DNA from: a virus
DNA: 28,302 nucleotides
Direction: 5' to 3' (one strand)
Virus record (IMG/VR): IMGVR_UViG_3300006086_000026
Span: 1 to 28,302 of that record
Part shown: positions 2,983-27,967 of the stretch, in pieces
Position numbering within the stretch: position 1 is the stretch's first letter
Layout: each line of letters opens with the position of its first letter
Made by a program: the position numbers and the translations under genes
Notes under the pieces: generated by a model
Databases searched by the model: none
Told to the model about the DNA's origin: nothing
The model's input: the letters and a program-made list of their open reading frames with translations, nothing else

Positions 2983-3145
2983 CTGATGCACTCCGTTTTG
3001 AGGGTGTGCTCAGGGTGTCAGGTCATGCGGAGTCATGCATGTGGTTGCTGTTTGCTGACATTTGAACAGGCAACTACCGCATAATGATCGTTTTACTTTC
3101 CTGTGGCACTATAAAACAGCCAGTGTCATAAACGAGGGATTGAGA
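2983..3145. promoter_or_regulatory. Divergent promoter region between FI and the Z/fun-slot insert
   Basis: Noncoding gap between two divergent genes, so it should hold the late promoter of FI (minus) and the promoter of the toxin-like gene (plus). The nearest match to the Ogr/Delta activator site TGT-N12-ACA is an imperfect TGT-N12-ACC on the minus strand (3061-3044). The stretch 3023-3039 (two ATGC motifs 10 bp apart) nearly repeats a stretch beside cos (21188-21204). No firm -10/-35 assignment. Confidence 0.35.
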
Positions 3146-3820
3146 ATGAGTTCAGGAACAGCCGCAAGACAGGAACCCGGACGTTACTACACATTTGAGT
3201 CAAGATTGCCTCAGGGCGTTTTTTTTGAGATTCGCCCCGGTCATTTGCCAAGAAATGCAAAGCCTATAACGGATGAAACCAGCGGTATGTGTATCGGTTA
3301 CTCGGTCGCACAGGCTCCGGGTTTGTGGCAGATTTATGATGTTCAGGGGCATTTTGTCAGGCTGGAAGAAGCGCCACTTGAAACACCCCTGATTGATCCC
3401 ACGGATATTGCCCTGTTTGGCTTGGGAATTTTTCGTATCCTTCGTACAGGGCGGGTGCTGTTTGAATCAGGGGCACGTGCCGCTGTTTATGCGAAGCTCA
3501 GTCACTCCACTATATCCTTTCTGCGCAGCAGACTTAAACTCGGGCTGCATGCACGTAACCTTAAAATGACCGAGACTGCTGCAAAACATATGTATGAACC
3601 GAGTCGCTATGTCCCTCTGCAAATTCAGGAAAGAGCGATTCGCTATGGCAGGCGGATGGCAGATCCCCGCAAAGGTGAAGGTATGTTCAGATATGAGACC
3701 AGAATGTTTAAACTACGCTTTAATAAGCAAACAATGGAATATGAGTATAAAGAATACACACTTGAAGTCGTCGTGCGTGAGTCAGACTGGACGATATCGC
3801 ATTTTAAATACATGGATTAA
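3146..3820 (+). CDS. Putative polymorphic-toxin-like protein (Z/fun-slot cargo)
   Basis: 224 aa from ATG at 3146 (GAGGGA 7 nt upstream); a longer TTG-initiated frame from 3062 would run through the promoter region. The N-terminal part (to about residue 80) is unrecognised. Residues about 85-115 hold an Ile/Leu/Gly-rich stretch (PTDIALFGLGIFRILRTG) like the region before many contact-dependent or type VI toxin domains. The last about 85 residues form a compact domain with ETAAKHMYEPSRYVP, then AIRYGRRMADP, then strands ending YTLEVVVRESDWTISHF. This spacing of His, Arg and a terminal strand pair resembles DUF4258/BrnT-like RNase-type toxin tails (inference). It is followed 17 bp later by an immunity-like gene. 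AT-richer than the tail genes on both sides and on the opposite strand. No signal peptide or delivery domain seen. An abortive-infection or T5-type exclusion role, as for P2 Fun at the same locus, is possible. Confidence 0.6.
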   Translation: MSSGTAARQEPGRYYTFESRLPQGVFFEIRPGHLPRNAKPITDETSGMCIGYSVAQAPGLWQIYDVQGHFVRLEEAPLETPLIDPTDIALFGLGIFRILRTGRVLFESGARAAVYAKLSHSTISFLRSRLKLGLHARNLKMTETAAKHMYEPSRYVPLQIQERAIRYGRRMADPRKGEGMFRYETRMFKLRFNKQTMEYEYKEYTLEVVVRESDWTISHFKYMD

Positions 3821-3837
3821 CAGACTGGAAAACTTGT

Positions 3838-4278
3838 ATGTTTGATTTGCGCAATGAAGATTTCACCTTTGTGATTTCTCCTTTTGAAAGAATCTCAGAC
3901 GATGAAGCCGATCCGGTTGATCATCTATGGGACTGGATCCAATCCTGGATTGAGTTCTCTGTTAGCGGCCTTAAAATGCAGTTTCAAACTGAATTTACCA
4001 TCGGCGAGCTAAAGATTTTAAAGGATGAGTTTTTCGCTCATTACCAGGCAATTATCACGCAGCGTGAATTAAAACCTTTTAATTTTCGCAGCGAACGTGG
4101 CCAGCTCAATATGGTTATCAGAAAAGTTACGGGTAAAGACGGTGTTATAGTGGAGTTTGATATCCGCCCTGAACCACACGCCGACAGCGTTCAGGTTAAA
4201 GGTGACTTCAGCCTTAATGAAAGCTATTTTCCTGACATTCTGAAGCGGCTTGATGAAATGATTCAATGGCAGAATTAG
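3838..4278 (+). CDS. Putative immunity protein (WapI-like) for the upstream toxin-like protein
   Basis: 146 aa, acidic and Trp-containing, starting 17 bp after the toxin-like gene. It has WDWIQSWIEFSVSGLKMQFQ, then EFTIGELKILKDEFF, then alternating strands (FDIRPEP, QVKGDFSLNESYFPDIL) and a C-terminal helix ending RLDEMIQWQN. The pattern of strands, then a helix starting near Y-x-P-x-x-x-x-L, then a strand-rich half is what I associate with the WapI family of immunity proteins; this is memory of the family and not a search. Its place directly behind a toxin-like gene, in one transcription unit ended by a terminator at 4306-4333, supports an immunity or antitoxin role. It could also be an unrelated moron product. 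Confidence 0.55.
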   Translation: MFDLRNEDFTFVISPFERISDDEADPVDHLWDWIQSWIEFSVSGLKMQFQTEFTIGELKILKDEFFAHYQAIITQRELKPFNFRSERGQLNMVIRKVTGKDGVIVEFDIRPEPHADSVQVKGDFSLNESYFPDILKRLDEMIQWQN

Positions 4279-8503: not shown

Positions 8504-9565
8504 ATGAGAAAGCTATTTGTAGAAGATGAAACACAAAGGGTGTTAAAGCAGTGCCGTAAGCTTGTTGCAAGAGAATCAGCGGACACGGAGTTTGATAAGA
8601 CTAGGAATTTATACATAACCCAAATGATAGATCTAATGACTCAACATCCTGAGCATTGGGATAAAACCACACCTTTAAATATAAGTTACTTTGGTGATAT
8701 ATTCATTAATGATCTAAATAGGATGGATTTTAATAAATACTATCTTGATGTGATATTTGCCGATCTGTTTAGGTTTTTAATTGAAAGCTATATTAGCAGT
8801 CCGGGTGAGATGAGTATGGAGTCAAAAGCTATTCGGAGTTTTGCCACGAATCAAGTGTCATATTTTGCAGAGGAAGCTTCCATTCAAATAAATTATGCTC
8901 TCCGAGACATGTCCCTGTCTATGTTTAAGAGCCTTTATAATGAAGAAGGCTTACAGGCAATTAGGAGTTTCTCTAACATTAAGGATCAAGCAGAAAACCT
9001 GAAAAGTGCTTGGGATACTGAAATCGAATCCAAGGAAAAAAAAGTAAAGTCTTTGAGGGATTCTCTTACCAATCAACTAGACTCTTATAACTTTGTTGGT
9101 CTACATGCAGGTTTTGCTAAACTTGGTCGTATTAAAGCAGGTGAGCTATTTTGGTCACGTCTTATAATGCTAGTCATCGGTTGCCTAACACCAATTTCAA
9201 TTGCTACACAGGTAATTTTATATCACCACTTCAATGTAGCATTCGAAAAGCCAATGGATCTGATTAAAATGCTCCCCGGAGCAAGTGTAACGTTATTATT
9301 ATTGTACTACTTTAGAGTTTCCTTAAGTAATTACTCTTCAGTTCGCGCTCAAATTATGCAAATCGAGCTTAGGAAAAGTTTATGTCGGTTCATTCAAAGA
9401 TATTCAGAGTACTCAGAGGGCATTAGCGCTAAAAACCCTCAGCTTCTGGCTAAATTTGAAGAGGTTATATTCTCAAATATAATGACTTCAGAGGATAAGA
9501 TACCATCAACATTTGATGGAATTGAGCAGATTGCAGGACTAATCTCTTCTTTAAAATCCAAATGA
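8504..9565 (+). CDS. Two-TM coiled-coil membrane protein in the orf30 slot, function unknown
   Basis: 353 aa, on the opposite strand to V and S, AT-rich and unlike its neighbours in base use. The N-terminal about 155 residues are a helical cytoplasmic-type domain; about 160-195 is a charged coiled coil (DQAENLKSAWDTEIESKEKK). A short conserved-looking motif SYNFVGLHAGFAKLG (194-208) precedes two membrane segments (about 217-240 and 255-273), with a soluble tail (about 280-353). The coiled coil, an NFVGL-like motif and two TMs resemble the DUF6161 type of protein as I remember it; not certain. In P2 this position holds orf30, a known variable cargo site. A superinfection-exclusion or defence role is plausible, with no catalytic motif to support it. 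Weak ribosome site (AAGAG). Confidence 0.75.
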   Translation: MRKLFVEDETQRVLKQCRKLVARESADTEFDKTRNLYITQMIDLMTQHPEHWDKTTPLNISYFGDIFINDLNRMDFNKYYLDVIFADLFRFLIESYISSPGEMSMESKAIRSFATNQVSYFAEEASIQINYALRDMSLSMFKSLYNEEGLQAIRSFSNIKDQAENLKSAWDTEIESKEKKVKSLRDSLTNQLDSYNFVGLHAGFAKLGRIKAGELFWSRLIMLVIGCLTPISIATQVILYHHFNVAFEKPMDLIKMLPGASVTLLLLYYFRVSLSNYSSVRAQIMQIELRKSLCRFIQRYSEYSEGISAKNPQLLAKFEEVIFSNIMTSEDKIPSTFDGIEQIAGLISSLKSK

Positions 9566-18146: not shown

Positions 18147-19256
18147 TTAAATTTTCGCTTTCTTAGGTGGTGCACAGCACCAACTGAAAAAAATTGATCC
18201 TATGTCACTCCAAATTCTTTTCATCTGAGGAGTCAACTTAGGTTTAAAAGCTTTTAAATTACCATACTTTATATGATCAACTGTTTTGGTCAGAATGTCA
18301 CTGCCATATCCATCGACTTTGAAACACCCTGGCTCACACGAACATACGCCTTGCCCAACACAAACACTTTCACGAAGTTCATTGGTTTGGGATAGTATTG
18401 GTCTCCAATAAGGAGTGTGTGAGACATCCAGTTGAAGAACTTTTTTCAAATCAAGACCATTTTTATGGTCATAGTAAAACTTAGCATCCTCTCTTATTTC
18501 TGTTACACGATCCCAGAAGTTTAATGAAAATTGCTGTTCCCTATTAATTCCATTTTTTTCTGTTACTTCTCTTAATAAATACTGTGGGATAAGACACTCA
18601 ACTTCATGAGCATCCAAAACATTAACCAACCCTGTGACATTGCTTGTAACATTATTAAAAGCGCGGCAGGTGCTTCCTCTTGATGATTCTGGGTGTTTTT
18701 TATCATTATCTAATATGCACAATACTAACTCATTGTTACTTACAAATCGATCAAAGGTTGCACGCGTCGAACCGCCTCCTCCATTTATTGCATCAAAAAC
18801 AGGAGGGCAGCTTCCATTAGCATTTATATTCTTCAAGTATTCTAATGCAACTATCTCATAAAAATCGGCATCACTAGGATTCTCACAAATGACTTTTGAC
18901 TTTTGAATGGATATTGAGTCTTGAAAGAATGAAGCAGTACAATGGAACACTTTCTTATTTGCAGGATTACTCCAATGATAAGCGTTTCCTGACATATTAA
19001 AATCAACATAAACCACGATTTCTATATGAGGAACTATCTGAGCATATTCAAGTTGAGCACGATAGAGTTCAATAGCTTGCATTTTTGTAGTTGTGCTCAG
19101 AGCGTCCAGCTTTGCTATAGTATCACGTAAAAAAGTTCTATCGCATAAAATGATATGTTTCCTTTCGCCAAAAGCTTTTATCAAGTTTTCAATTGCAGTT
19201 AAGTGCAATGCGTTGTTAGGGTCAAAACTACCATGATTTTTTATTTCGATTAGCAT
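18147..19256 (-). CDS. TOPRIM-like protein, partner of the ATPase
   Basis: 369 aa, AT-rich gene starting 4 bp after the ATPase stop. The middle looks like a TOPRIM (OLD/RNase M5-like) catalytic core: E125 in CENPSDADFYEIVALEYL, the DxD pair D183/D185 in LCILDNDKKHP, and E218/E220 in AHEVECLIP. The N-terminal about 90 residues (HIILCDRTFLRDTIAKL; IEIVVYVDFNM) form an unrecognised alpha/beta part. A cysteine cluster C299, C305, C307, C311 may bind a metal. With an SMC/ABC-type ATPase upstream the arrangement matches OLD (both domains in one protein), AbiL/RloA-RloB and PARIS (AriA-AriB), but I do not recognise this protein as AriB or RloB. Likely a nuclease effector of an anti-phage system; inferred. 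Confidence 0.7.
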   Translation of the reverse strand: MLIEIKNHGSFDPNNALHLTAIENLIKAFGERKHIILCDRTFLRDTIAKLDALSTTTKMQAIELYRAQLEYAQIVPHIEIVVYVDFNMSGNAYHWSNPANKKVFHCTASFFQDSISIQKSKVICENPSDADFYEIVALEYLKNINANGSCPPVFDAINGGGGSTRATFDRFVSNNELVLCILDNDKKHPESSRGSTCRAFNNVTSNVTGLVNVLDAHEVECLIPQYLLREVTEKNGINREQQFSLNFWDRVTEIREDAKFYYDHKNGLDLKKVLQLDVSHTPYWRPILSQTNELRESVCVGQGVCSCEPGCFKVDGYGSDILTKTVDHIKYGNLKAFKPKLTPQMKRIWSDIGSIFFSWCCAPPKKAKI

Positions 19257-19260
19257 TTTT

Positions 19261-20823
19261 TCAATTCATCCCTGAGAAGAAACCAATCGGCCAATTATTT
19301 AAATATCCATTTTCGTCAAAATATGCATTTTGTAGAGTGGTACTATTTTTTTCATCTTTGTTAAATACAATAATCGAGACATCATCTTTACTTATTGGAT
19401 GAGAAGAGTCCTCGATACACTCACTTAAAGCTTCGATCATTGATTGGCTATGGGTTTCAAAAATTATTTTAACATTTTCGGTTTTTTTTACGACCTTAGC
19501 AAAAAGTTTTGCAAGGTTGTGTTGATAAGCAGGGTGTAAATGAAGTTCCGGCTGCTCAATAATAAAAAGAATAGGGTTGTTCTTTTTTGAATTATTTTTA
19601 TTTTCGGACTCTATCCATATAGCAGCTATGATAGGTAATACTTGTGAGTAGCCAAATCCCATATCACTAACATTGAACTCATTATCTGAACCAGCCATTT
19701 GTATATTTACAGCGAAGTGCGCACCTACCTGTTTAACTTTAACATAGAAGCCAAAATTCTCTTTTGTCCAAGCCTCAAAATTTGCCTTCTCTTGAGGTCG
19801 CAATGAATTTAGCAACATTGCAAGATTTGAACCTGTATGATCTATCTCATGTACCTGTAAATCTTGGAATCTATAAAACCTCTCGGAAGTAGCACGCAAA
19901 GGAGCTATATATCTTACTGAACGATAAGTTTCATTCAATGAAATATTAATAAGGCTATTAAGGTAATTAATATTCCACATAATTGATAAAGGGTATACTT
20001 TTTGTAATATTTCAGTCTCAAATGTCTTTAAGTTTTTAAGGAAGTGCTTTTGTTCTTTGAATTTATATTTAAGAACCTGTATGAAAAGATTCTTTGAAAC
20101 TGGACCAATGGCTTTTAATCCATCACGAATTTTAAGATTTGATGTGTTGTAATGAAAGTATGGCCTTAGATTTTTTACCGCGGAATCATAAAAAGATGCT
20201 TCGTAGGGGTCCTCTCTAAACGGAGAGCTCCACATGAGTTCCTTAGGAAAGAGAGCAGCTTGCATATTGGCTTCTTCTCGCTTTTTTAAACTCAATGTTG
20301 GGAGGAAGTTACCTGTGTTCCTAACAATATAATTATCTGATGGAAATGAGATGTTTTGATTCAAAAAGAATATATTGGCATTATTTTGTTCGTCAACAAC
20401 TATAGAGTATTCTTCATCAAAAAAAACCACAGTGACTTTTTTTGTTCTGGTTTTCTTATCTTTTCCAGAAGAAAGCTCAAGCTTGATTTTAACAGGAGTA
20501 TCATCATGAGATAATATCTTTCTTGAGCGAACTGACATCATATGTTTCTGAGTCAGGAGTATCTCAAAATTAAAACCAATAGTATCATTAGTTGTGTTCT
20601 TCGAGATAACGTCGGAAAAATCTCCAAAGTCAACATATCTTCCATACCACAAAACAGGCCCAGTGGTATTTTCTTCTGAAGATTGTCTGAATAGTGGGAA
20701 TGTTCTTATCAAAGAACTTTTACCGCTACTATTTTTACCCACAAAAATGGTAATTGGTTTTATTTCTAAATATTGTTCTTTGTCGAAACTTCTAAAGTTA
20801 TTAACACCAATCCCTTTAAGCAT
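19261..20823 (-). CDS. AAA/ABC-type ATPase (OLD-like, DUF3696-type C-terminus)
   Basis: 520 aa. N-terminal MLKGIGVNNFRSFDKEQYLE and Walker A GKNSSGKSS (29-37). A signature-like SDMGFGYSQVLPI lies at about 386-398. Walker B is ILFIIEQPELHLHP with E423 and E426, followed by the switch motif KIIFETHSQSMIEAL. The end, ENGYLNNWPIGFF, looks like the DUF3696 C-terminus found on defence-type ATPases. The long insert between the two halves (about 80-370) is characteristic of this group and should dimerise or sense a trigger. It is the first gene of a two-gene AT-rich operon inserted between cos and Q. By analogy it would hold the TOPRIM effector inactive until a phage component is detected (inference). 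Confidence 0.85.
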   Translation of the reverse strand: MLKGIGVNNFRSFDKEQYLEIKPITIFVGKNSSGKSSLIRTFPLFRQSSEENTTGPVLWYGRYVDFGDFSDVISKNTTNDTIGFNFEILLTQKHMMSVRSRKILSHDDTPVKIKLELSSGKDKKTRTKKVTVVFFDEEYSIVVDEQNNANIFFLNQNISFPSDNYIVRNTGNFLPTLSLKKREEANMQAALFPKELMWSSPFREDPYEASFYDSAVKNLRPYFHYNTSNLKIRDGLKAIGPVSKNLFIQVLKYKFKEQKHFLKNLKTFETEILQKVYPLSIMWNINYLNSLINISLNETYRSVRYIAPLRATSERFYRFQDLQVHEIDHTGSNLAMLLNSLRPQEKANFEAWTKENFGFYVKVKQVGAHFAVNIQMAGSDNEFNVSDMGFGYSQVLPIIAAIWIESENKNNSKKNNPILFIIEQPELHLHPAYQHNLAKLFAKVVKKTENVKIIFETHSQSMIEALSECIEDSSHPISKDDVSIIVFNKDEKNSTTLQNAYFDENGYLNNWPIGFFSGMN

Positions 20824-21229: not shown

Positions 21230-21252
21230 AAAAAGCCACCTGAAAGGTGGCT
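21230..21252 (-). terminator. Terminator of the LexA-controlled small gene
   Basis: Stem AGCCACC/GGTGGCT with a short loop. On the minus strand it is followed by a run of T (complement of 21230-21234). It lies 28 bp after the stop of the 58-aa gene and before cos, closing that transcript. Confidence 0.75.
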
Positions 21253-21279: not shown

Positions 21280-21456
21280 TCATTCAGCCTGGCAGTATAT
21301 GGCAGCTTCGAAAACAGATGTGTCGATTGTGCCTGCCATGTCACTGATCATCGACAGTGCCATTTTTAATTCATCTTCTTTGCAGTGTGCGATCAGTGAT
21401 ATGTCAGCAACGAACTGAATGCGTGCAACCGTTTCACTTAGATTATCTATGTTCAT
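21280..21456 (-). CDS. Small SOS-controlled protein in the tum position
   Basis: 58 aa, MNIDNLSETVARIQFVADIS to a C-terminal YCQAE. Acidic and helical with two Cys, no TM and no DinI or HTH signature. AAGGAG lies 11 nt before the ATG (21456-21454). A near-consensus LexA box overlaps the -10 of its promoter and a terminator follows the gene, so this is a stand-alone SOS transcription unit. It sits between gpA and cos, where phage 186 carries the LexA-controlled antirepressor gene tum. It is much shorter than Tum (about 146 aa), and I see no sequence similarity. Best reading: candidate inducer or antirepressor. Alternative: a small SOS-regulated moron. Confidence 0.8.
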   Translation of the reverse strand: MNIDNLSETVARIQFVADISLIAHCKEDELKMALSMISDMAGTIDTSVFEAAIYCQAE

Positions 21457-21486
21457 CAAATGATTAACTCCTTCTAGTCAAAAAAA

Positions 21487-21506
21487 TACTGTATGTATAA
21501 ACAGTA
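21487..21506 (-). promoter_or_regulatory. LexA (SOS) box
   Basis: TACTGTATGTATAAACAGTA, against the consensus TACTG(TA)5CAGTA: both half-sites are perfect and only the centre differs. It covers the -10 (TATACA, complement of 21494-21499) of a promoter whose -35 is TTGAAG (21521-21516) with a 16-bp spacer. LexA bound here would block the 58-aa gene until DNA damage. Confidence 0.88.
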
Positions 21507-21566
21507 TCACGGTGACTTCAAATCGTAAAGAATCGTGCGGATCAGATTAGTCCGACTGCCGTTTTA

Positions 21567-23795
21567 TTAATCAGGCAGTTTTATGCCCCTTTTTCTCGCG
21601 AGCGCAATGAAGCGCTTTAATGGATTGGTATCTTTGCGCTGTCTATGGAACAGATAGCCGCTTGTACCGCTCCAGTAAGAAAGCTCCCCAACCCTGATTG
21701 TATGGCCTTTCATCATGCGGACAGCTTCACCGTCGGACAGTGTTAGCCTGGAGATCTCGAAGAAACTCTTTTTCAACGTTTCCCGTTCTGTGCAATGACT
21801 TAGTTCAGTATGATATTTGTCCGGCTCAGGTTGCTCCTGCGCTGGCTTTTCTCTTAATTGCTTAATGATCCTTCTTCGCTCGGCGCGAGTAGGGGGCTTT
21901 GTGAAATCGATAGCTGCTTCAAAGCCTGGTGGCTCCGTACAGTTATTGACAGAACTCCGAGAGGACGCAGGCGCGTCCTTAAATTCAAAACCCAAATCAA
22001 CAGCACGTTTCGGGACAATCTTCCATTGCATCAGACGGGTTAAAATTGGCGTATCGTTGCCAACTTCAGTTGCGTAAACACCCTTGATGCGCACGGTTTC
22101 CTCTCCGTACTCATTCATGTCTTCGCTTGCCTGATACCAGGTGCGCACAGCCAGCTCGTCGCGGCGCACAAATGGGCCACCCTGCGCGTTAACGTATCCG
22201 GCCCAGTCTCCTGCGTCGGCGGCGTCATGCGCGGCCGCAAACTCAACGCTCAGGCCGTGCGCGGTTTCGCTGTCTGCCATGCGGCGCAGTTCGCGGTAAA
22301 CCGTGACCGGCGCACCGCCCACAAACTGAAATTGCCGGATGTGCCAGCGTGCCGCCCAGGCAGAAACGGCCGAGGCGGTTTCCTTAAGGTCTTTGCCGCT
22401 TTCGGCGTCCGTCTCGCCGTCCAGCGCGTAGCCATCGATATTCTTGGAAATGTATTTAGCAACGTAACCCGTCGCGCTGCCTTTCTCCGGGTCGATAGCC
22501 TCGGCGTGAAAGCGGGCCTTACGGGCTTTGTCGGTTGTCAGCTCGCTGCCGTCTTGCTGCCAGGCGTAGTCGCGCATAATCTCGCGCACGCGTTCAGCCT
22601 GCTCCGGGCGCATAAACATGAGCATGTGCCAGTGCGGGGTTGCATCGTGATGAGGTTCGGCAACGCGGATCCCGAAGATGCGGATTTCTTCGCGGTGCAG
22701 CTTGGCGCGAATTTTCTGCCAGACACTGCAGAGATAACGCTGGGTGTCGGCCGGGCTGGAACCGTTCCATTTACGGTTACGATGCCCGGTTTTGATTGTG
22801 GCGTGATAGCGCGCGGGGGCGGTCAGCGTGTAGAATTCGCCGATAAAGCCCATTTCATTGCAGATGTTTTCGAAGCCACGAATGCGGGTCATCAGCTCGC
22901 AGCGGCGAATAGCCGGATTGGCCACACTGCCGTCATATTTCTCGATCAAGCTGATACGGTTGCCTTCTTCGTCTTCCAGCTCCATTCCCTTCAGAAACTC
23001 ACGGGTGCGGCGCTTCTGCTCGCGCCACTCTGAAACGGTCATGCTGCTGGCGTAGGGGGTGTGTTTTTTGCTCACGTTAGCCAGGGCAATCTGAAGGTGT
23101 TCACGCCATGATGCGGCCACGCGGCGCAGTCGGCCTTTCCACCATTTTTCCGTCTGCATACGCATGATCGCCGGGGTAACTTCCTCCGGGTCAAACAGCC
23201 GTGACGTGACTTTATCCCATAATGGCGGGGTCTGGCTCAGCTCGCGGGTGATGGTGGCGGCGGTCATGTAAACGCGATGCGTGTATTTGTAATCTGATTC
23301 GTCGCTGGCCTGGGCGTGCGCCTGTACCAGCTCAGCGAGAATGAAATTAGCCACATCCCCGGCCAGCAGATCGACGTCGGCGCGCGCCATGTCAGGCAGT
23401 CGGTTGAAGCGGCGCATTAGATTGAAAAGCTGACCAGCTGCTATAGCCGTATTGTCACGCTCAGTGGCGTTACCGCCGAGTAAATTCAATGTGCTCCCCT
23501 TCATTACGCCGACACGATATTGAGCGTTAACGGTTTCAACGCGTGGCAATGTGCGCTCAACAAATGTCTTTGTTAAGTACACATTGGCGCGGGCTGTTCC
23601 GTGCGTTTTTTCCAGATCACTGGCGCGGCGTTTAACATCGAGTTGTATCAGGGTCGGCTGCTTTTCAAGTAGCTCATGCGCACGCACTAAAGCCGCAATC
23701 ATCTGACTGCGGCTGCGCATTTCCTCATAGGTGGGATAGGGGCTGGCGATGGCTTCCCGTGGAGCATTCCACGGGTAAGCAAATTCCTCATGCAT
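21567..23795 (-). CDS. A: Replication initiator gpA (HUH endonuclease)
   Basis: 742 aa (P2 A: 761 aa). Rolling-circle initiator that nicks the origin and stays joined to the 5' end. The HUH motif is H388-W389-H390 (TPHWHML). The paired catalytic tyrosines Y444 and Y448 (GYVAKYISK) match Tyr450/Tyr454 of P2 gpA. The motif FYTLTAPARYHA lies at 321-332. In P2 and 186 the origin lies inside A, so one is expected within this gene, though I could not place the nick site. Start ATG overlaps the end of the zinc-finger gene upstream. Last gene of the cox-to-A early operon. Confidence 0.95.
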   Translation of the reverse strand: MHEEFAYPWNAPREAIASPYPTYEEMRSRSQMIAALVRAHELLEKQPTLIQLDVKRRASDLEKTHGTARANVYLTKTFVERTLPRVETVNAQYRVGVMKGSTLNLLGGNATERDNTAIAAGQLFNLMRRFNRLPDMARADVDLLAGDVANFILAELVQAHAQASDESDYKYTHRVYMTAATITRELSQTPPLWDKVTSRLFDPEEVTPAIMRMQTEKWWKGRLRRVAASWREHLQIALANVSKKHTPYASSMTVSEWREQKRRTREFLKGMELEDEEGNRISLIEKYDGSVANPAIRRCELMTRIRGFENICNEMGFIGEFYTLTAPARYHATIKTGHRNRKWNGSSPADTQRYLCSVWQKIRAKLHREEIRIFGIRVAEPHHDATPHWHMLMFMRPEQAERVREIMRDYAWQQDGSELTTDKARKARFHAEAIDPEKGSATGYVAKYISKNIDGYALDGETDAESGKDLKETASAVSAWAARWHIRQFQFVGGAPVTVYRELRRMADSETAHGLSVEFAAAHDAADAGDWAGYVNAQGGPFVRRDELAVRTWYQASEDMNEYGEETVRIKGVYATEVGNDTPILTRLMQWKIVPKRAVDLGFEFKDAPASSRSSVNNCTEPPGFEAAIDFTKPPTRAERRRIIKQLREKPAQEQPEPDKYHTELSHCTERETLKKSFFEISRLTLSDGEAVRMMKGHTIRVGELSYWSGTSGYLFHRQRKDTNPLKRFIALARKRGIKLPD

Positions 23796-24818: not shown

Positions 24819-25328
24819 TCAACTCATGCCAAATGATGCACCGATGCCGCTGATGGCATCGACGGTTGAGGACAGTGTCGGATTAGCCTGAATACGTGCC
24901 TGTACTGCCATTGCGGCCAGTGTTAAGCAGCGAATACCACTATTAACGTTTTGCAGAAGGCCACGTTTACAGTTGGCTGTCATAGGTTCTGTAGAAGTTG
25001 CCCCAGCTGCTAACTGACCTACTTCTGCGGTGGCTTTCATGACATATAGGGGAAATTTTTCATCAGCGACTTCGTTTACCGGCACACAGGGGAGACACTG
25101 GATTTGCGCCAGCAGGCCATCAACTAACGTTGCATCCTCAGTGACATCGGTAAGGGCTAAAACCTCTAAGACGGTAAGCTGATGTGGCTGGTCTGGATTC
25201 AGCTTGTTACGCAACGTTTGCGCACGCATGCCGGACTGCTTAGCGACGTCTACCATGTTGTGAGCTAACGCGAATTTGCGACAGGCATCGTCGTAATGGG
25301 TATGGGTAGAAACCTTGAAATCAAACAT
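24819..25328 (-). CDS. cII: CII-type regulatory protein
   Basis: 169 aa from ATG at 25328 (AAGGA about 10 nt upstream); the longer frame to 25442 would run into the Cox-like gene. Phage regulatory CII family (186 CII type). It has a POU/HTH-like domain in the N-terminal half (MVDVAKQSGMRAQTLRNKLN) and a helical C-terminal half. In 186, CII activates the establishment promoter for CI. P2 itself has no such gene, so the control region is of the 186/PSP3 kind. Confidence 0.88.
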   Translation of the reverse strand: MFDFKVSTHTHYDDACRKFALAHNMVDVAKQSGMRAQTLRNKLNPDQPHQLTVLEVLALTDVTEDATLVDGLLAQIQCLPCVPVNEVADEKFPLYVMKATAEVGQLAAGATSTEPMTANCKRGLLQNVNSGIRCLTLAAMAVQARIQANPTLSSTVDAISGIGASFGMS

Positions 25329-25359
25329 GCTCAGATCCTTCTTAACTTGCAAAATCAAG

Positions 25360-25761
25360 TTATGGTTTGATATAGCGGCATTTGATTGCTTGTTGGCGGT
25401 TCTTCTCACGCCATGCAGCAACATTGATAAGCGGATTGCCATGTTTCGTCATGGTGGTCTCTACCACTTCGCCGGTCTTACGATTAGTGCGGTTCTGCGT
25501 GTAAGTGAAAGATGGAGTAGGAGCAAGCAAGACAACGCCATTAGCAATCCATTTCTCCAGCACCGACAGGCTAATGCGGTTGGCTGCAGCAAAGTCCTGC
25601 TTAGACATTGTTGGGGATGTGGCGAGCGTGACGGCTTTGTTTACGGCGTCGTTTACCGCTTCGCTGATGGCTGGCATCAAAATCGCTGCGACATTGGCAA
25701 TAAAATCTTGAGATTGCACTAAGTCAAATGCGTTCTGACTATTTGCATTTTCAGTATGCAT
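25360..25761 (-). CDS. cox: Cox/Apl-like regulator and excisionase
   Basis: 133 aa from ATG at 25761 (GGAG 9 nt upstream). The N-terminal about 55 residues are a helical extension not present in P2 Cox (91 aa). The rest is a Cox-type HTH (SKQDFAAANRISLSVLEKWI, ANGVVLLAP) followed by a conserved end GNPLINVAAWREKN. Cox represses the CI-side promoter and assists excision. First gene of the early operon, divergent from cI. Also reads as the repressor counterpart at the lysis-lysogeny switch. Confidence 0.85.
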   Translation of the reverse strand: MHTENANSQNAFDLVQSQDFIANVAAILMPAISEAVNDAVNKAVTLATSPTMSKQDFAAANRISLSVLEKWIANGVVLLAPTPSFTYTQNRTNRKTGEVVETTMTKHGNPLINVAAWREKNRQQAIKCRYIKP

Positions 25762-25876
25762 AACGCAGTATCTCCTATTAGTTAAGCGTGTTCTATTGTG
25801 TTGCATGTGGTATGCAAACACTCTAGATCGCATTTGTTTAACTGTAAACATAATTTAGCGTTTATTGGTAAAAATA
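25762..25876. promoter_or_regulatory. CI/Cox control region (lysis-lysogeny switch)
   Basis: 115 bp between divergent genes. The Cox-side promoter fits TTTACA (25848-25843), 17 bp, TAGAGT (25825-25820) on the minus strand. Directly after its -10 lies an imperfect palindrome, GTGTTGCAT/ATGCAAACAC, at 25798-25821. A second short palindrome, GTTTA-N4-TAAAC, lies at 25836-25849, over the -35. Both are placed to act as operators. The CI-side promoter is not clear to me. Confidence 0.5.
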
Positions 25877-26719
25877 ATGCGTCTTGAAAATGCAGTTGCG
25901 AGCGAGGTGTTAGAACGAATCCTCTCAGCGTATGGCTTCACCATGCAAAAAGAATTAAGCGATAGACTAGAAATTGCCAAGAGCAATGTCGCTAGTTGGT
26001 TGGCGCGCGGTCAGGTTCCGGGCAACGTTATTGTGCAATGTTCTCTTGATACAGGAGCTGATGTAAATTGGTTAGTTACTGGTGAACTTGAAAAAGCAAG
26101 TCAACAACGCGAACTTCCAAACCTGACTGGTAAAGCTGTTTACGATGAAGTTATGGCTAATGGTGGTAAATCTGTGCTTCGTCGTATCCTTGATGCATAT
26201 GGATTCACCCAGCAAAAGCAACTCTGTGAATTACTGGATATTTCATCAGGCACTGTCAGCACCTGGGTAAGACGGAATTATTTTCCCGGTGATGTTGTTG
26301 TTGCGTGTGCGCTTGATACAGGTGTTGATCTGCATTGGCTTGCAACAGGAAAGGGAAAACAGCTAAAAGAAACTATTAAAGAATCCGAAACCTTTTCTAT
26401 CCCTCGCAAGAATCTTATTGCAGGCAGCTTGTATGAAAATGGTCTGTGGGAAATTAACCTCAGCTTCATCTCTCAAAATCTTGTTGAACCGGTGTTCGTA
26501 TCGAGCAGCAATTCTGCTTGGGTTGTTGATTTAAGTATTGGTGATATTAGCAACGGGCGTTGGTTGATGGGAATCGACGGTAAATACGATGTATATGACA
26601 TCACGCTTTTACCTGGGCGTAAAATTAGCGTCACTAATAAGGGAACAAATTTCACTTGTGGTGCTGATGAAGTAAAAACTGCTGGCAAGGTGGTTTTGAC
26701 AATGGATTATAATTTTTAA
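25877..26719 (+). CDS. cI: CI repressor with tandem duplicated DNA-binding domain
   Basis: 280 aa from ATG at 25877; a TTG at 25865 would add four codons. Two copies of the 186-CI N-terminal HTH domain: residues 11-70 (VLERILSAYGF to WLVTGE) and 100-159 (VLRRILDAYGF to WLATGK). They align without gaps over 60 positions, with 32 identities by eye, and an 89-residue (267-nt) period. A linker and a single C-terminal oligomerisation domain follow (about 172-280, FSIPRKNL to the end). 186 CI has one HTH copy and is not RecA-cleaved; no self-cleavage motif is seen here either. It should bind the operators at 25798-25849 and hold the prophage silent. Confidence 0.92.
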   Translation: MRLENAVASEVLERILSAYGFTMQKELSDRLEIAKSNVASWLARGQVPGNVIVQCSLDTGADVNWLVTGELEKASQQRELPNLTGKAVYDEVMANGGKSVLRRILDAYGFTQQKQLCELLDISSGTVSTWVRRNYFPGDVVVACALDTGVDLHWLATGKGKQLKETIKESETFSIPRKNLIAGSLYENGLWEINLSFISQNLVEPVFVSSSNSAWVVDLSIGDISNGRWLMGIDGKYDVYDITLLPGRKISVTNKGTNFTCGADEVKTAGKVVLTMDYNF

Positions 26720-26732
26720 TAAGGGATAAATC

Positions 26733-27314
26733 ATGGATATGATTTTTGCAATATTAGGTTTAGTTTTAGTGATTTGGTCTGTTCGTAGCATTTTTAATAA
26801 GCAGCAAGGTCTTGGTAAAAAAATTGGTAAGTCTATTTTTTCTGCATGGTATTTCTTTACTGCTGCTGGTTTGGCAATATCCCCATCTGATTCAGTTAAG
26901 ATCGCTATCATTATGATGATGGTCGGTGCATTTGTTATTTGGTATTGTAATCGAAATTACAAAACGCCTACCACTAATAACGATATACTAAATGGTTATG
27001 CTGACGCTGTAAAAGGATTTGATTTATCCACTAACAAGAATGAACAAAGCAAGTATCGCTCAGTTAACCATGCAAAAGGCAAAGATGAAGAAATCAAAAA
27101 GGTCGCATTTTCATATGTGAATAGTAAAGGCGAAAATAGCTTTCGAGACGTCGATGTTAAAAGCTTTGATGGTGAGTATTTAGAAGGTTATTGTCATCTT
27201 TCACGTAAATTCAAGACATTTAGGCTCGATAGGGTCGAAGGTGAAATCATCATCCGAGATACAGGCGAAGCCATAGATACTATTGATTGGGCTGCTCAAA
27301 TGGAAGCAAGATAA
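26733..27314 (+). CDS. Membrane protein with a WYL-like C-terminal domain
   Basis: 193 aa, 13 bp after cI. Three membrane segments (about 2-19, 36-50, 54-73), a hydrophilic linker (about 75-118), and a C-terminal segment VAFSYVNSKGENSFRDVDVK to CHLSRKFKTFRLDRVEGEII with the pattern of a WYL domain (AFSYVNS, R138, a YCHL box and a TFRLDR end). WYL domains sense nucleic-acid-like ligands in defence regulators; on membrane anchors they are less common. Co-transcribed with cI and so expressed in the lysogen, which suits a superinfection-exclusion or signalling role (inference). AT-rich. Confidence 0.75.
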   Translation: MDMIFAILGLVLVIWSVRSIFNKQQGLGKKIGKSIFSAWYFFTAAGLAISPSDSVKIAIIMMMVGAFVIWYCNRNYKTPTTNNDILNGYADAVKGFDLSTNKNEQSKYRSVNHAKGKDEEIKKVAFSYVNSKGENSFRDVDVKSFDGEYLEGYCHLSRKFKTFRLDRVEGEIIIRDTGEAIDTIDWAAQMEAR

Positions 27315-27337
27315 TTTTTCTTAAAAGGAGATGTTGC

Positions 27338-27967
27338 ATGTCGGATATAATTGAAACATTTGTGAAAGTAGTATTGCCAATTATTTTGGCTTTGGTAGCG
27401 GTACTTTCTTTTTTCAAAGAAATGTTTTTAACTAAACGAAGAGTATTTGAAGAAAGAGAAAAGCTTAGTAAATTGAGTTATGATCTTTATAAAATAACTG
27501 ATGATGAAGATTTAAAGCGGCTGTCCATTGAGTACGGCTATGCTGCAATAACTAAAGAAAACTTTCTGAGTCAGCAACAACGAAAAGCCTTAGTTAGAAG
27601 TGAAAATCCTACTAGAGATATTGACTTGTTTGTAAAGTGTAGAGGGCTGTTAGACATAAAAACTGAACCACTTACGTTTGTTTGGAAAAAAAAGAGATAT
27701 GCTAATAAGTTTTATTTTAGTATGTCTATTTTTGTTAGGGTAACACTCTACACATTTGGGGCGCTAATATTCTTATTGCCGCTGCTATACAGCGCATTAC
27801 TGCCTAATTTTATTCTTGAGAAGCTGAGTGATTTTTCTGCACTGGCAAAGATAGGTATGGCCTTATATGCGCTATCCGCTGGAGCATTTTTAGCGTATGT
27901 GAATCTCTCTGCTGCTGTAAGGTTGATCGACTCTTCAAGACTCATTAAACGTCACACTACTGATTAG
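27338..27967 (+). CDS. Three-TM membrane protein, function unknown
   Basis: 209 aa from ATG at 27338, AAGGAG 7-8 nt upstream; a longer frame from 27287 overlaps the WYL gene. N-terminal membrane segment (about 9-27), a charged cytosolic region (about 30-125, with FEEREKLSKLSYDLYKITDD), and two C-terminal membrane segments (about 131-153 and 172-193). No family recognised. Lies 23 bp after the WYL-like gene, so a two-gene unit expressed from the cI side. Possible lysogenic-conversion or exclusion protein. Confidence 0.72.
   Translation: MSDIIETFVKVVLPIILALVAVLSFFKEMFLTKRRVFEEREKLSKLSYDLYKITDDEDLKRLSIEYGYAAITKENFLSQQQRKALVRSENPTRDIDLFVKCRGLLDIKTEPLTFVWKKKRYANKFYFSMSIFVRVTLYTFGALIFLLPLLYSALLPNFILEKLSDFSALAKIGMALYALSAGAFLAYVNLSAAVRLIDSSRLIKRHTTD

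Follow-up and report, generated by a model that had tools for sequence, protein, structure and literature searches.

Phage 186 encodes Tum, a 146-aa LexA-controlled inhibitor of the CI repressor, and its p95-tum module de-represses pR after UV (PMC7708051). In the record of PSP3, tumA is annotated as "similar to 5' end 186 tum", and tumB as similar to dinI and to the 3' end of tum; antirepressor activity in PSP3 has been assigned, as a personal communication, to the upstream gene (PMC3121763). The P2-like DuoHS of E. coli HS no longer lyses its host after mitomycin when tum is deleted or when LexA is non-cleavable (PMC12055606). Reading the P2-like prophage of this strain by chromosome coordinates, we found a 62-aa phrog_698 protein, one or more LexA boxes, and a DinI gene at the tum position (924619-925051). 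From the P2-like gene set we infer that this prophage is DuoHS, and the deleted tum could be either the phrog_698 gene or the DinI gene. By their description, GfoA and GftA of the Gifsy phages are also alike, being small, LexA-controlled, and acting on a non-cleavable repressor (PMC3121763), although their targets are the ~150-aa repressors GfoR and GtgR. Here, we describe a new member of the Tum/TumA kind of antirepressor that lacks the DinI part, a pared-down relative of this known switch.

The 58-aa gene and its LexA box

The analysed stretch of 28,302 nt (IMG/VR record IMGVR_UViG_3300006086_000026, hereafter the window) is from a P2-like phage of Pantoea/Erwinia-type bacteria. The sequence-only reading had placed a 58-aa gene with its own terminator between gpA and cos, and all these elements have been located:

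21567-23795, minus strand: replication endonuclease gpA, the upstream neighbour (phrog_91, E 2.6e-263)
21524-21529, minus strand: candidate -35 element TTTACG, 17 nt upstream of TACTGT
21487-21506, minus strand: LexA (SOS) box TACTGTTTATACATACAGTA, 30 nt upstream of the tumA-like ATG
21467-21473 (approximate), minus strand: Shine-Dalgarno-like AGGAG stretch, from sequence reading
21280-21456, minus strand: 58-aa tumA-like gene (Tum N-domain without the DinI half), ATG at 21456-21454, stop codon TGA at 21280-21282
21234-21252, minus strand: intrinsic terminator of the tumA transcript, AGCCACCTTTCAGGTGGCT-TTTTG, 3' of the stop codon
21075-21093, minus strand: cos site, GGCGTGGCGGGGATAGCAT, differing from the annotated 186 cos by a single base (18/19 identity)

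The encoded protein is MNIDNLSETVARIQFVADISLIAHCKEDELKMALSMISDMAGTIDTSVFEAAIYCQAE. Translation might also begin at a TTG one codon upstream (21459), with a closer Shine-Dalgarno spacing. The order A, LexA box, tum, cos is common to the window and 186, and the position between gpA and cos of a P2-like phage with a 186-type CI is that of the TumA family, as is the LexA box directly upstream.

Both half-sites of the box are perfect, as had been claimed: its CTGT-N8-ACAG core is the sole zero-mismatch occurrence in the window. With up to three mismatches allowed, the 20-mer LexA consensus has one match in the window and none in 100 shuffles. LexA control of the 58-aa gene is thus well supported; at the level of sequence it stands established, together with the homology and the selection described below. 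The claim that the box covers the -10 element of a promoter fared less clearly, as a sigma-70 promoter scan yielded no candidate reaching the threshold. Still, the LexA box of 186 begins with TACTGT, the hexamer annotated there as the -10 element of p95, which makes the same overlap plausible here by analogy. The candidate -35 element is likewise placed as in p95 and is conserved in relatives, although it is sub-threshold in the scan.

Several other genes in the window were also noted. Between cos and the portal gene (18147-20823), an AAA ATPase (NsnB-, PDC-M55A-, and AriA-like) is accompanied by a second, weakly PDC-M55B-like gene, and the pair is likely anti-phage defence cargo. In the tail region, a pair of genes on the opposite strand (3062-4278) encodes a product of 252 aa together with a WapI-like immunity protein (PF24716, 3.9e-7); pieces related to this pair occur upstream of tumA in loci L031, L034, and L035. 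A 353-aa gene without a family match lies on the opposite strand among tail and baseplate genes (8504-9565).

Relationship to Tum and TumA

The 58-aa protein matches phrog_1993 (E 4e-20, residues 2-58), the profile match extending across the domain length. The same family is matched by residues 1-61 of 186 Tum (1e-22), by PSP3 TumA (2.7e-32), and by relatives from Yersinia; the remainder of 186 Tum past this N-terminal half is the DinI domain. In a tblastn comparison, the window protein is 47% identical to PSP3 TumA. Its pairwise similarity to 186 Tum is weak (19%), and therefore the homology link to 186 Tum rests on profiles: hhalign of the window family yielded E 2.7e-16 with the PSP3-type set, 2.6e-6 with the 186-type set, and 1.3e-6 with the Fels-2-type set. 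Moreover, phrog_1993, phrog_698, and phrog_8554, all listed as "unknown function", cross-match one another's members, suggesting that they form one putative superfamily of LexA-controlled antirepressors. Pfam and NCBIfam models had no match to the 58-aa protein or the other members tested, and a PDB sequence search with the 58-aa protein also gave no match. An AlphaFold2 model of the protein consists of three helices, with modest confidence (pLDDT 74, pTM 0.56), and Foldseek found no match to it in PDB below E 6. A 62-aa ORF of 4LV2017, although similar in size to TumA members, proved to be unrelated.

Among the closest known systems, PSP3 TumA (AAN08399.1, 60 aa) is a homologous protein of the same size and position, with a LexA box about as far upstream, and occurs with a tandem-HTH CI. 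It differs in that tumB, encoding a DinI-like protein, lies directly downstream, whereas the window gene is followed by a terminator and DinI is absent. Like the window gene, 186 tum is LexA-controlled and lies between A and cos, but in 186 a C-terminal DinI domain is fused to the homologous residues, and its CI has one HTH rather than two. The Fels-2-type tum region (RE2010, DuoHS; 62-aa phrog_698 protein plus DinI) shares the LexA boxes and the position and encodes a remote homologue; unlike the window, it represents another subfamily, has a DinI partner, and occurs with a CI of single-HTH size.

We searched the window and 81 close loci for DinI with tblastn and HMM and found none, while all four positive controls were detected. 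Hence, the window gene has neither the C-terminal DinI-like domain nor the linked tumB of a full-length 186-type Tum, and the absence of this half explains why its product is smaller than 186 Tum. Among 26 distant or reference members, DinI is fused or linked in 11; it was not seen in the other 15, which include ENT90 and Yersinia phages, and one Yersinia member without DinI has already been annotated as "tum protein". As DinI-less members are common, the shortness of the window protein reflects the antirepressor core alone and not a different solution.

IMG/VR contigs, as well as genomes of Pantoea and Erwinia, yielded relatives of the 58-aa gene; among 395 Enterobacterales genomes searched, 15 hold a member. 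Counting the window, 82 close sequences were compared, and 78 of them retain the whole LexA core, with CTGT 46-48 nt before the start codon; two of the remaining four have a single-base difference in the core and two are apparently decayed. Across 66 distinct sequences, the core is 99.4% conserved, versus 87% for the upstream flank. The dN/dS ratio over 57 distinct tumA coding sequences is 0.086, and at the sequence level the gene is evidently under strong purifying selection. A LexA-like box ~40-70 bp upstream was present in all distant loci and phage references examined, all from Enterobacterales, being weak in L115; LexA boxes also accompany the members in RE2010 and E. coli HS. One Pantoea genome with a relative contains further near-perfect LexA sites, commoner than the reversed control pattern.

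These data bear on two alternatives. The ORF is short, and it could be imagined to have arisen by chance beside a chance LexA-like palindrome. With zero box matches expected by chance, and the gene kept in more than 80 loci at the above dN/dS, this possibility is negligible; it has already been refuted by conservation. Alternatively, the gene could be a remnant of a longer Tum, that is, an antirepressor that needs its lost DinI partner and is thus weak or reliant on host DinI. The fusion of the DinI half in 186 Tum, its linkage in PSP3, and the imperfect LexA core in the four sequences mentioned would all fit such decay. On the other hand, purifying selection is strong and the box is near-invariant, DinI-less forms also occur in ENT90, in Yersinia phages, and at many genomic loci, and dinI deletions in Gifsy phages did not significantly affect induction (PMC3121763). 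We consider the remnant explanation very improbable, and prefer to see the gene as a stand-alone antirepressor core.

Some bacterial loci are less complete. Loci L007, L008, and L009 are bacterial-chromosome remnants which keep tumA with no CI nearby, and the LexA box of L008 has decayed. In matches from E. coli genomes (H201-H240), the partner following the tumA region varies by strain, being a DinI-family or an unnamed protein, which suggests partner exchange.

The CI repressor as presumed target

The immunity region of the window includes two genes of 186 type:

25865-26719, plus strand: immunity repressor CI, presumed TumA target, with two tandem Phage_CI_repr HTH domains (PF07022, two stretches, 2.7e-49) and Phage_CI_C (PF16452, 1.4e-20)
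24819-25442, minus strand: CII-like activator of the 186-type immunity region (PF06892, 1.6e-45)

Two genes downstream of CI (26733-27967) are possible lysogenic cargo. The product of one combines a membrane-like N-terminus with a WYL-like domain, and that of the other is weakly SLATT-like.

The repressor had been described as the uncleavable kind of 186. This holds for its domains, as both Phage_CI_repr and Phage_CI_C are present and no S24 peptidase domain was matched in the window CI, which also matches the solved structure of 186 CI (2fjr, 3e-26). However, it does not simply duplicate 186 CI: where the latter has a single N-terminal HTH, the window CI has two, NTD1 and NTD2, which are 51% identical to each other. 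The tandem CI is a more unusual component of the system than the DinI-less TumA.

Besides the window, a 186-type CI (in one case partial) was found at 42 close loci, that is, at every locus with the immunity region captured. At least 37 of these 43 repressors, including that of the window, are tandem. We considered the CI-less loci L007-L009, L031, L034, L035, L054, and L077 as counter-examples, but they are remnants or contigs ending before the immunity region. Among the distant genomic loci, the 16 whose flanks are long enough all have a 186-type CI nearby, which is tandem in six, and CI is listed for all tum-bearing phage records except the pair MK416018/NC_049451. Tandem CI also occurs in PSP3 and the phages closely related to it. 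At one locus, L121 (G260:C11, 536-2418), three successive CI-like genes lie upstream of tumA, and each of them encodes a single HTH and a single C-terminal domain.

The 58-aa product could instead be a small SOS-induced protein that serves a different purpose, such as in host DNA replication or division or in RecA modulation, as phages are generally known to carry small genes under SOS control that have other roles. But the homology is to the non-DinI half of Tum, with no DinI match; the gene is always at the tum position and always accompanied by a 186-type CI where this is visible; and the window has no second LexA box able to drive induction. Hence, a role other than CI inactivation seems improbable to us, and we return to CI as the presumed target.

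The CI domains of the tandem repressors diverge to different extents, with the mean identity of 81% for NTD2, 64% for NTD1, and 47% for CTD, while TumA is ~88% conserved. In a mirror-tree analysis of close relatives, TumA did not co-vary with any CI domain (r about 0) and tracked the neighbouring gpA (r 0.87); therefore this comparison gives no direct sign of a TumA–CI interaction. On the broader TumA tree, the CI architecture is clustered, with 5 changes versus 10.8 in shuffled data (0/500), a result limited by long branches and near-copies. As TumA is near-constant while CI varies, it should act on something constant, and NTD2 is the obvious candidate for such a docking partner. This is a hypothesis, as a conserved role of NTD2 in binding operators would account for its conservation just as well. 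In a more speculative extension, which we regard as rather unlikely, the tandem CI would split tasks: NTD1 and CTD would diversify while NTD2 docks the near-invariant TumA, so that TumA of one phage could wake co-resident prophages differing in NTD1 and CTD.

Prophage induction

Taken together, the 58-aa gene very probably encodes TumA on its own, the core of the 186/PSP3 Tum system that acts as antirepressor, with the DinI part missing. It would act in a chain from DNA damage through TumA and CI to prophage induction. The sequence-only reading had proposed the 58-aa protein, from its position, as a candidate for a much smaller antirepressor, and this is supported by its sharing phrog_1993 with Tum residues 1-61 and PSP3 TumA and by the 186-type CI. 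Since DNA damage would turn the gene on, and since its product is homologous to the first half of 186 Tum, this protein is most likely the one that releases the dormant phage; binding of CI and antirepression would be carried over from its homologues.

In a lysogen, LexA would bind the box and block the tumA promoter. Upon DNA damage, RecA would trigger LexA cleavage, and the 58-aa helical protein would be made. By homology, this protein may then bind the non-cleavable CI, which would lose its operators, allowing early lytic transcription. Once LexA recovers, TumA synthesis would stop, and CI could regain control.

An unannotated 58-aa ORF thus gains a likely role as the switch that induces a widespread group of P2-like phages of Pantoea and Erwinia. 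Its natural DinI-less members allow one to test directly the idea that the N-terminal half alone is the antirepressor. Finally, the near-invariant TumA beside a strongly varying CI predicts that co-resident prophages may be cross-induced.
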